Source: Clostridiaceae bacterium
GTDB taxonomy: Bacteria; Bacillota; Clostridia; Acetivibrionales; Acetivibrionaceae
DNA: 64,000 bases
Direction: 5' to 3'
Assembly (NCBI GenBank): GCA_012519925.1
Contig: JAAYPF010000087.1
Coordinates: 1-64,000, forward strand
Position 1 is the first letter of the stretch, and each line of letters starts with the position of its first letter. The notes beneath the pieces are model-generated. The model was not told the origin of the DNA. It searched no databases and saw only the letters and a list, made by a program, of their open reading frames with translations. Both the position numbers and the translations under genes were made by a program. Below are positions 37,983 through 50,636 of this stretch, piece after piece.

Positions 37983-38336
37983 TTATATAACTTTTACTTT
38001 GCTTCTACACCTCTCATCGATCTTGTTATATAACTTATACCACCTTTGAACTCCATTTTCCAATTTGAAGTAATGGGCTATATATGGAGCCAAAAGAGCT
38101 AAAATCAATAAGCTTACCAACAGGATTACTGGTTTTTCAAAAGACACAGCAAATAGGATAGTAACAATAAAAAACAGTGCAAAAGCAAGAGTGACCATCA
38201 GATGTATCAGCCTTTCATGCTGGAGATACTGTATCTGGGTTTTATGATAATCCTTCAACCACTCCCAATCTAAATCTTCCACTTTATTTAATGTTTCTAA
38301 AATAAATTGTTCATGCTTTTTTAAATAATCCTCCAT
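37983..38336 (-). CDS. Small two-helix membrane protein paired with the RsgI-like gene
   Basis: A 117-aa protein with an N-terminal acidic/aromatic helix region and two transmembrane segments (about 46-65 and 70-88), then a basic tail. AGAGG precedes the ATG at 38336. It starts 40 bp after the stop of the SigI-C/RsgI hybrid, on the same strand, so it is probably cotranscribed. I do not recognise the family. Confidence 0.6.
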   Translation of the reverse strand: MEDYLKKHEQFILETLNKVEDLDWEWLKDYHKTQIQYLQHERLIHLMVTLAFALFFIVTILFAVSFEKPVILLVSLLILALLAPYIAHYFKLENGVQRWYKLYNKIDERCRSKVKVI

Positions 38337-38376
38337 ATACCTCAACCTCTATGTTTACTATATTTGCTTGTCTTTT

Positions 38377-39672
38377 TTATATTTCTCCTTCGCAAATCCA
38401 TTCTTCTACCTCAACAAGCCTAGCTTCACATATTAAATCATGTATGGAACTTTTCCTGACCTCTCCAATATTTAATACTATAGATTCTTGTTTGGATTTT
38501 TCGAAAATATACTGTCTTCCTATAGATAAGTTGTTCATACTAGCAGACTTTACAGTATCTTCAGGTACAGAAATCACAACAGGTATAATGACTTCATCAC
38601 CTGTTACCCGTAATTTAATATGATTTAAAAGCTCTCCAAATTTTTCTTCTTCATCACCTTTTTTATCCACATAAGGATTTAACGCTAGGGAAACAAGGAC
38701 CAAATTTTCTTTATCCTCATATACAAAACCTCTGTCGTGAGCAAATCCAAAAACCTCTTCAATAGCTTCATCTATCGGCATTTCCCTCAAATCATTATCC
38801 ATAAGAAGTATATCTGCATCTCTATTTAATGTATTTATGCCTACAACTATGTTATTTCTGTTAACAAACAACTCGAGACTAGGATTTATATCAATAACAA
38901 CAACAGCATAGCTTTTGTCGACGGGAGGCATCTCCATAAAGTAAAGCAAGCTTCTTAATAAAATTATACCAAAAATAATAATACTTGTAAAAGCAACAAC
39001 TTTTCTCATTATATATTGATGATTTTCTTTTTTTTCCCAAACCGCAAAACTAATCTGTTGTCCTAAAATCATTCCTTTTTTCTTTTTTACTAAAACAAAG
39101 CTGCAATCACTGGTCATCACAATCGCACCGTCTTGTGCTAATTCTACAATAGTACCAATATTATGGTTTTGATCTGTTTTTGCATATGTATTATCGATAT
39201 AAGCCTTCAAGCATTTAAGATCACTTTTGATAAATAGACATAATGCAATTATAAACCTACGGTTCTTTTCTAGTGTACCTCGATATATATTTACTACTTC
39301 CAATACTTCTTGAATTGGCAGAGTCTTTTTCTTTTCAATCTTTTCTAGCAACCATTCATCTTCCACAATACCTTTAGCAGTCTTTATGCACGCAAACATT
39401 GAACCTTCATTCTTTGGGCTGTAGGACAATAGCTTACGAAAAGATATTCTATAACGCTTAAGCTCTTTGCTCAAAGCTTGGATATCTTTTTTTAGTTTTA
39501 TAGTATTAAACTCATCGTTGTCCTCTAATTCTGTATATGATTCTTCAAAATCATAGTTCTGTTCTTTTTCTAAACATGTAAACAAACTATCTTTTATTAG
39601 CTCTTCTTGCTTTTGTCTTCTATCAGCATAACGAATTTTGAAATCCAAAGGTTCATCCCTCCATTCGTACAA
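38377..39672 (-). CDS. SigI C-terminal domain fused to RsgI-type anti-sigma factor
   Basis: A 431-aa protein. Residues about 60-160 match the C-terminal DNA-binding domain of sigma-I (ELKRYRISFRKLLSYSPK, then LPIQEVLEVV and the helix TLEKNRRFIIA). Residues 170-215 are an RsgI_N anti-sigma domain (GTIVELAQDGAIVMTSDCSF), 223-245 a transmembrane helix, and 253-340 the RsgI periplasmic domain with the Asn-Pro self-cleavage site DINPS (261-265). No sugar-sensing domain follows, and no SigI region 2 is encoded upstream. TTG start with AAGG; start uncertain. Function is probably regulatory (inference). Confidence 0.8.
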   Translation of the reverse strand: MYEWRDEPLDFKIRYADRRQKQEELIKDSLFTCLEKEQNYDFEESYTELEDNDEFNTIKLKKDIQALSKELKRYRISFRKLLSYSPKNEGSMFACIKTAKGIVEDEWLLEKIEKKKTLPIQEVLEVVNIYRGTLEKNRRFIIALCLFIKSDLKCLKAYIDNTYAKTDQNHNIGTIVELAQDGAIVMTSDCSFVLVKKKKGMILGQQISFAVWEKKENHQYIMRKVVAFTSIIIFGIILLRSLLYFMEMPPVDKSYAVVVIDINPSLELFVNRNNIVVGINTLNRDADILLMDNDLREMPIDEAIEEVFGFAHDRGFVYEDKENLVLVSLALNPYVDKKGDEEEKFGELLNHIKLRVTGDEVIIPVVISVPEDTVKSASMNNLSIGRQYIFEKSKQESIVLNIGEVRKSSIHDLICEARLVEVEEWICEGEI

Positions 39673-40089
39673 AAAGACCTTAGAGCTTCTTCATAATTAA
39701 CTTTGTTAGGCTATTTATCAAATGCCTATACTGTATTTGAATTATAAAGACATAAAATTTTTGAAAGGATAAGAGTCTAATCTTTATTAGTTCTTTAGAA
39801 TGTTTTAAATATTTTGAATCTCTTAAGATATATCGGATAATTTGATATTTATATAAACATAAATAAGCAATAGGTATATCACATTTTTAGAAAGGTGATT
39901 CGACTTTTCTTATTTCGCAAGAAACAGAGGAACGAAAACAGTGTATCTCTTTGTAGAAAATATAGGGTAGCCAAACAACCTGCCTGAGCACCCTACTAAA
40001 ACCAAAAAATGAAAATCCTCTTTCCACCCCCCAGTATAGGGATTTACAAAAATAGGATTTTCATTAATTTCTATACTGTAAAAAAAGTA
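39673..40089. other. Intergenic region upstream of the SigI-C/RsgI hybrid
   Basis: 417 bp with frequent stops in every minus-strand frame, so no SigI region 2 is hidden here. A segment at 39893-40052 belongs to the dispersed element family. A TATAAT-like hexamer lies near 39741 on the minus strand but has no good -35. Confidence 0.5.
39893..40052 (+). repeat. Dispersed intergenic element, copy E
   Basis: The stretch from GGTAGCCAAAC to TTTCCACCCC aligns with 52311-52380 near the shared block GAGCACCCT. GCAAGAAACAGAGGAACGAA is close to a stretch at about 40814. There is no ORF. Confidence 0.5.
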
Positions 40090-49511: not shown

Positions 49512-50636
49512 TTAGTTTGTTATTTTAACTTCCTTTAAATCTCCATCCCATGCAACCTTTAGACCAAGATTTTCACTTACAAATCTCAGAGGTAATACTG
49601 TTCTGCCCTCTATAATTTCGGGTACTACATCAAGCCTTTTCAGTTTACCTCCAACTATTGCAGCATCCTTACCAATCCACAACTCAACTATCTGTTCTCC
49701 AAAAGAAATTGTTACTTTTTCTTCTTTACCATTCCAGTCAACTTTAGCACCAAAGGTCTCAGAAACATATCTTATGGGCAATAATGTTCTACCATCCTTT
49801 ATTATAGGTGCAAGGTCCATTTCATTCTTCACATCATTAATATAGTAGTATTTTACTCCGATATAAAAGCGTTGAACAATTTGTTGTGTAGAATTTGGTA
49901 CTTCCTCATTTTCTTCGATAATTTCTTGGCTATTGTCTGGATTAGAATCCAAATCTCCACTAGTATTTTTAGGCACATTACCGTCGGTTACTTTTGGTGT
50001 CGGAACTATTTTTGAAGTTGGACCACTAGATGTAGTTGGTGACGGTGTTACTAATTGAGTTGTTGTTGGAGTTATGAATTTTGATGGTGTTGATGTTATT
50101 GATGGTGTTGATGTTATTGATGGTTTCGGTGCTGATGTTGGCGTTGATGTTGGTGTTAGTTTCGGCGTCGATGTTGGTGTTGATGTTGGTTTCGGTGTTG
50201 ATGTTGATTTCGGCGTTGTTGGTGTTGATGTTGGTTTCGGCGTTGATGTTGGTTTCGACGTTGGTGTTTGTGTTGGTTTCGGTGTTGATGTTGGTTTCGA
50301 CGTTGGTGTTTGTGTTGATTTCGGTGTTGATGTTGGTTTCGACGTTGGTGTTTGTGTTGGTTTCGGTGTTGATGTTGGTTTCGATAGTGTTCTTAATACT
50401 TCTCCTGTTGGTGTCGGTGTACTATAACTTGGTCGTGCTGTTGTTGTCATTGGTTCTAATATCTCTCTATTTGATCCTGAGTCCTCTTCTAATATATCCC
50501 ACCTATTTCTTAAAACTTCTCTTTCGGCATAAGAATTGCTTGCATACAACAAAGATGAACCATTAGGTAAACAAATCAAACCTCCAAGAATTAAACTAGC
50601 TGTTAAAACATAACACCAAAGTTTTGATTTACGCAT
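49512..50636 (-). CDS. Secreted protein with Thr/Pro-rich linker and stalk-type (copper amine oxidase N-terminal-like) domains
   Basis: A 374-aa secreted protein. Residues 1-33 are a signal peptide ending near LYASNSYA. A long low-complexity linker of Thr, Pro, Ser and Lys (about 80-225) is built partly from a 14-residue unit ending TPTSKPTSTPK repeated in tandem. Residues 250-374 carry two stalk-type repeats, with DGRTLLPIRYVSETFGAKVDW and its partner EGRTVLPLRFVSENLGLKVAW. Such linkers often carry sugars, and the stalk domains bind cell wall or extracellular material in clostridia (family inference). GGGG before ATG. Confidence 0.82.
   Translation of the reverse strand: MRKSKLWCYVLTASLILGGLICLPNGSSLLYASNSYAEREVLRNRWDILEEDSGSNREILEPMTTTARPSYSTPTPTGEVLRTLSKPTSTPKPTQTPTSKPTSTPKSTQTPTSKPTSTPKPTQTPTSKPTSTPKPTSTPTTPKSTSTPKPTSTPTSTPKLTPTSTPTSAPKPSITSTPSITSTPSKFITPTTTQLVTPSPTTSSGPTSKIVPTPKVTDGNVPKNTSGDLDSNPDNSQEIIEENEEVPNSTQQIVQRFYIGVKYYYINDVKNEMDLAPIIKDGRTLLPIRYVSETFGAKVDWNGKEEKVTISFGEQIVELWIGKDAAIVGGKLKRLDVVPEIIEGRTVLPLRFVSENLGLKVAWDGDLKEVKITN
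50242..50390 (-). repeat. 42-bp coding tandem repeat (three near-identical units)
   Basis: The linker-coding DNA repeats a 42-bp unit encoding 14 residues of the type PTQTPTSKPTSTPK three times, with the middle copy starting STQ instead of PTQ. The units are almost identical at DNA level, consistent with recent expansion by slippage. Confidence 0.8.

Follow-up and report, generated by a model that had tools for sequence, protein, structure and literature searches.

The window analysed here, a stretch of 64,000 nucleotides, encodes on its minus strand a protein in which the C-terminal domain of a sigma-I factor (SigI_C) runs directly into an RsgI anti-sigma factor. The fusion is conserved in a second species, lacks sigma region 2 and the key DNA contact of sigma-I, and has no sigma-I-type promoter pattern within the 900 bp upstream. 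On balance we think it probable that the protein is a single-chain pseudo-sigma/anti-sigma receptor that caps itself and does not act as a sigma factor. Sigma-I/RsgI pairs serve plant polysaccharide sensing and the tuning of the cellulosome in these bacteria.

A sigma-I domain and an RsgI in one open reading frame

The locus comprises the following features.

38377..39672, minus strand: SigI_C-RsgI fusion open reading frame, 431 aa, TTG start (domain matches; a single frame also in the related genome G002)
39678..39681, minus strand: AAGG, a putative and weak ribosome-binding-like sequence that precedes the TTG by 5 nt
39505..39630, minus strand: residues 15-56, end of the former region 2 and SigI inter-domain linker (NF006173 match from profile position 98; alignment to sigI of the relative G001)
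39190..39504, minus strand: residues 57-161, SigI C-terminal domain (profile, PDB and Foldseek matches; dN/dS)
39409..39411, minus strand: Asn88, in place of the essential minor-groove histidine, SigI6 H171 (alignment)
39163..39189, minus strand: residues 162-170, the joint, from which the stop of the former sigI and the ribosome site and start codon of rsgI have disappeared (comparison with G001)
39037..39162, minus strand: residues 171-212, RsgI_N, the SigI_C-binding domain of canonical systems (profile, PDB and Foldseek matches)
38926..39000, minus strand: residues 225-249, transmembrane helix that lacks the XAA motif found in C. thermocellum RsgIs (hydropathy and motif scan)
38500..38910, minus strand: residues 255-391, RsgI_M extracytoplasmic self-cleavage domain (profile and PDB matches)
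38878..38892, minus strand: residues 261-265, DINPS, the N-P self-cleavage motif, intact (sequence)

An earlier note on this DNA had proposed, from the sequence alone, that a SigI C-terminal domain at residues 60-160 shares a chain with RsgI_N, a transmembrane helix and the DINPS motif, and that region 2 is absent. The architecture is borne out by profile and PDB matches, and the SigI segment is real, beginning earlier than proposed, at about residue 15: the NCBIfam SigI model NF006173 aligns fusion residues 15-165 with profile positions 98-248 of 251 (E 8.6e-33), and TIGR02895 matches as well (E 3.3e-24). The start of the match at profile position 98, with no convincing remnant upstream, agrees with the absence of region 2. 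The fusion falls below the curated whole-protein SigI cut-offs, as expected for a protein without the N-terminal half. Among known structures, the cytoplasmic parts match SigI1C (6ivu_B, E 3.6e-16), SigI6 (8i24), SigI1 (8i23) and RsgI1, and the outer part resembles several RsgI periplasmic domains.

The protein is thus a sigma-I homologue by its SigI_C domain, with no region 2, the part that binds the polymerase core and the -10 element, and carries its membrane anti-sigma factor in the same chain. Its RsgI part has the features that define an RsgI, namely RsgI_N (PF12791, residues 171-209, E 8.5e-11) and RsgI_M (PF23750, residues 255-391, E 2.8e-21), both above gathering thresholds, one membrane helix and an N-P self-cleavage motif; with DINPS retained, self-cleavage of the fusion may still occur. 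No separate cognate sigI gene adjoins this RsgI part.

Elsewhere in the window, positions 49512-50636 encode a secreted protein. It contains a long Pro/Thr/Ser/Lys repeat, and its C-terminal part resembles, by eye, copper-amine-oxidase N domains; an antisense reading frame at 50081-50566 looks like a shadow of this gene.

Comparison with related genomes

That the fusion is a genuine gene is supported by comparison of the window's genome (G000) with G002, of the same genus, and with G001. G002 carries the same fusion (413 aa, 53% identical), which starts at the same position, close to where region 2 used to end, while G001 retains separate, overlapping sigI (254 aa) and rsgI (560 aa) genes. All three loci lie in a matching neighbourhood of genes for pyruvate-formate-lyase activase and small membrane proteins. 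The Shine-Dalgarno run of the G001 rsgI gene (GGAGGGAGGGG) and its ATG are absent from both fusions; at the RsgI boundary G000 offers no start codon, and the one candidate in G002, a GTG immediately ahead of the conserved Gly, has no ribosome site. Without these rsgI signals, one chain would be made. The shared architecture and truncation point, together with the loss of these rsgI signals, rule out a sequencing error that removed an in-frame region 2, the circumstance that the earlier note had named as fatal to its reading.

A stretch of the G000 upstream DNA that by eye suggested region 2 in another frame did not hold up. A profile scan that tolerates frameshifts, run over the 400 bp upstream in all frames, gave no convincing region-2 remnant in G000 or G002: the intact G001 sigI scores 149 bits, as against 15 for G000 and 10 for G002, and 2 of 40 shuffles of the G000 DNA and 29 of 40 of the G002 DNA score as high. 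A small membrane protein (37983-38345) that adjoins the fusion and is kept in G000, G001 and G002 was considered as a partner and is treated as unrelated, since 13 genomes of the order have homologues and the one in G013 lies beside no sigI locus found there.

Between G000 and G002, dN/dS is ~0.27 over the whole fusion and 0.08 over SigI_C, compared with 0.21 for SigI_C between G002 and G001, all rough values because dS is near saturation.

Loss of the DNA contact and of the promoter pattern

H171 of SigI6 reaches into the A-tract minor groove in the open complex, and the H171N substitution abolishes activity in vivo (PMC10575876). It is exactly this position that is Asn in both the G000 and the G002 fusions, and the next residue is Glu or Asp in place of Arg/Lys. 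Among the minor-groove contacts K170, H171, R172 and S174, the G000 fusion keeps the lysine and has Asn for H171 and Glu for R172. Across 87 SigI-domain proteins of the order, the histidine is present in 67 of 68 unfused SigI and in none of 19 SigI-RsgI_N fusions, a tally of related sequences that represents only three independent origins. The other conserved SigI_C positions are mostly retained (32 of 44 cells in the clade that holds the window protein, class B below), so that the fold is maintained.

The upstream DNA tells a similar story. With the pattern C-N5-AAA-N12-15-CGWA, relaxed from a published consensus (PMC4711584) and sought within 300 bp upstream, sigma-I-type sites precede 31 of 67 unfused genes and 0 of 18 fused genes (Fisher p 1.6e-4; ~3% expected from shuffling); here too the sequences counted are related and the independent origins number three. 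No such pattern lies within 900 bp upstream in either G000 or G002; in G001, where sigI is unfused, one occurs at -304. For the window's fusion taken singly, the lack of a recognizable autoregulatory sigma-I promoter is a weak test, the pattern being present in only 31 of 67 unfused genes. Judged by its upstream sequence, the fusion has apparently left the sigma-I circuit.

A predicted cis cap, and other readings

RsgI inhibits sigma-I by covering the face of SigI_C that also binds the flap tip of RNA polymerase (PMC10575876). AlphaFold2 predicts residues 52-217 of the fusion with pLDDT 96.1 and pTM 0.90, the latter, for two domains, indicating confident mutual placement of SigI_C and RsgI_N; Foldseek pairs the model halves with 6ivu_B (SigI_C, TM-score 0.83 on target) and 6ivs_A (RsgI_N, 0.75). 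The earlier note's description of the protein as possibly self-inhibited fits this predicted packing, though the prediction may recall the trans complex. From this model confidence and the known SigI1C-RsgI1N complex we infer a cap in cis.

The following course of events would account for these observations. Two neighbouring genes, sigI and rsgI, which G001 still keeps apart, would have fused in an ancestor of G000 and G002. Region 2, the histidine that contacts DNA and the C-terminal extracellular modules would have been lost, as would the stop codon of sigI and both the ribosome site and the start codon of rsgI. SigI_C would now most likely serve only as the built-in ligand of RsgI_N, packed against it in cis. 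An RsgI_N permanently occupied by its own sigma remnant would release no sigma factor, nor easily capture other sigma-I factors, and the fusion would be transcriptionally silent.

Might RsgI_N still capture other sigma-I factors in trans, with the fused SigI_C acting as a tunable competitive lid, so that the protein is an anti-sigma buffer? RsgI_N is the best-conserved cytoplasmic part (64-71% identity), the window's genome holds several other sigI-rsgI pairs, and RsgI_N-SigI_C binding is a known inhibitory contact. Covalent linkage, which makes the local concentration of the partner very high, should nonetheless let it win over partners in trans, and SigI_C remains under purifying selection; we consider this reading unlikely, if worth some weight. 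Less probable again is that the gene is a relic in decay, or an artefact of assembly, and has no function. It has indeed lost the promoter pattern, region 2 and the modules of the ectodomain, and SigI_C of the fusions evolves faster than that of G001, as judged by tree branch lengths, but some 410 codons have stayed open in two species at the divergence, dN/dS and common truncation point given above.

We see a marginally smaller chance that SigI_C, set free by proteolysis upon a signal, binds the beta flap tip without DNA contacts and lowers sigma-I transcription. The overlap of its faces for the flap tip and for RsgI (PMC10575876) and its conservation despite the lost DNA contact would suit such a role; the known destruction of the freed RsgI fragment by ClpXP, on the other hand, would probably also consume the linked SigI_C. 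Least probable of all is the earlier note's own proposal of a membrane-tethered DNA-binding factor freed by proteolysis, or a decoy competing at SigI promoters, for although C. thermocellum RseP cuts RsgI in its membrane helix to free a cytoplasmic piece and the SigI_C fold is retained, both fusions have Asn for the essential His and an acidic residue for the basic one after it, which leaves the proposal unsupported, and the G000 helix has no XAA motif (that of G002 has CAA).

Recurrent fusions across the order

The fusion in the window has counterparts. A search for the same architecture, which the earlier note had suggested, finds it in G002 and in fusions of two further kinds, for a total of 19 SigI-RsgI_N fusions in the order, none with the histidine. 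In a SigI tree built without the motif columns and with clades judged by SH-aLRT, these fall into three separately arisen clades: class A (15 rows, SH-aLRT 98), class B (the window protein and its G002 counterpart, grouped with the unfused G001 SigI, SH-aLRT 99) and class C (2 rows, SH-aLRT 100). Within the order, classes A and C are found in families f1 and f5. An Arg of region 2, present in 68 of 68 in the comparison set, is found in 0 of 15 class A fusions and is kept in class C.

Class A is also represented in the window's own genome (L004, positions 1165-2775 of contig C116), as well as in G001 (L026) and G002 (L030). These three proteins have a full-length sigma-I-like part with degenerate DNA contacts, followed by RsgI_N, a membrane helix, a Pro-rich linker and an Ig-like module that is weakly ChitinaseA_N-like; they have no RsgI_M. 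G028, G029 and G030 carry several class A fusions per genome (L119-L126, L131), some of them adjacent (L119, L120, L123). The AlphaFold2 model of one class A protein reaches pTM 0.71, the linker that follows its sigma2-like domain being of low confidence. The class C loci are L127 and L128 in G004 and L130 in G007; in G004 class C lies within an identical, inverted duplication of 4.5 kb that also encodes an RHS-like protein, and the G007 copy also adjoins an RHS-like protein.

At many loci (for example L019, L038 and L040-L044) sigI and rsgI stand in the same frame with a single stop between them, so that fusion by stop loss is one mutation away. Outside the order, no SigI-RsgI_N fusion was found among 391 genomes sampled across the class (E<=1e-28), and one was found among 398 genomes across the phylum. 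This last, in G759 (L145, 2292-4427), is full-length and keeps the His, from which it follows that fusion need not kill the sigma half. It joins SigI and RsgI in a single 711-aa frame, one single-base indel away from a GTGA overlap, and is known from one genome; family relatives have a stop between sigI and rsgI, and the fusion may be recent or an error. Two scans of genome contigs returned no named relative apart from one Bacillales pair of separate genes.

Relation to known systems

The canonical SigI/RsgI systems of Acetivibrio (Clostridium) thermocellum (SigI1/RsgI1, 6IVU) have the same SigI_C, RsgI_N, membrane helix and RsgI_M with N-P motif, distributed over two proteins, with a sigma factor that has region 2 and the His and an RsgI that usually bears a sensor module. 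The window's fusion, in contrast, is one chain in which region 2 and the sensor module are absent and the His is Asn. The orphan RsgI9 of C. thermocellum likewise has no neighbouring sigI of its own; it is reported to carry a predicted disordered insert of ~100 residues between its beta-barrel domain and membrane helix, and no SigI domain in front (PMC12203970).

Sigma and membrane anti-sigma factors do share one polypeptide in IutY of Pseudomonas putida (ECF243) and in the ECF48, ECF52 and ECF53 groups (PMC8999054). These contain ECF sigma halves, functional in IutY and expected to be so in the others, that are freed by proteolysis. The fusion described here belongs to sigma-I and, by its sequence, appears to have no such competent half, since region 2 is missing and H171 is replaced. 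The ECF52 protein SCO4117, with its Pro-rich region and carbohydrate-binding ectodomain (PMC8999054), is laid out much like the class A proteins, most of which end in a Pro-rich linker and an Ig-like module. Class A in turn resembles the window fusion in that SigI_C leads straight into RsgI_N and a membrane helix and that the His is gone, and differs from it in its separate origin, in its lack of RsgI_M and in a sigma2-like fold kept with changed conserved residues. The passages found in the sigma-I papers searched deal with pairs or with the orphan RsgI9, and mention no sigma-I/RsgI fusion. The view that no system of this design had been described therefore holds for sigma-I within those passages; it does not extend to sigma factors at large, given the ECF fusions.

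Implications

The sigma-I/RsgI pair has been merged into one chain, with the DNA contact lost, in at least three separate lineages. As a tentative but serious possibility, single-chain SigI-RsgI_N pseudo-sigma receptors may form a recurrent class in cellulolytic clostridia, in which sigma domains without DNA binding act as cis caps or switches of a membrane receptor, that is, as non-DNA signalling domains. When sigI and rsgI genes are counted in these genomes, the totals may include proteins unable to work as sigma factors. The finding suggests that a sigma domain can stay under selection for a purpose other than the initiation of transcription, for example to shield a receptor against cross-talk among numerous sigma-I paralogues.
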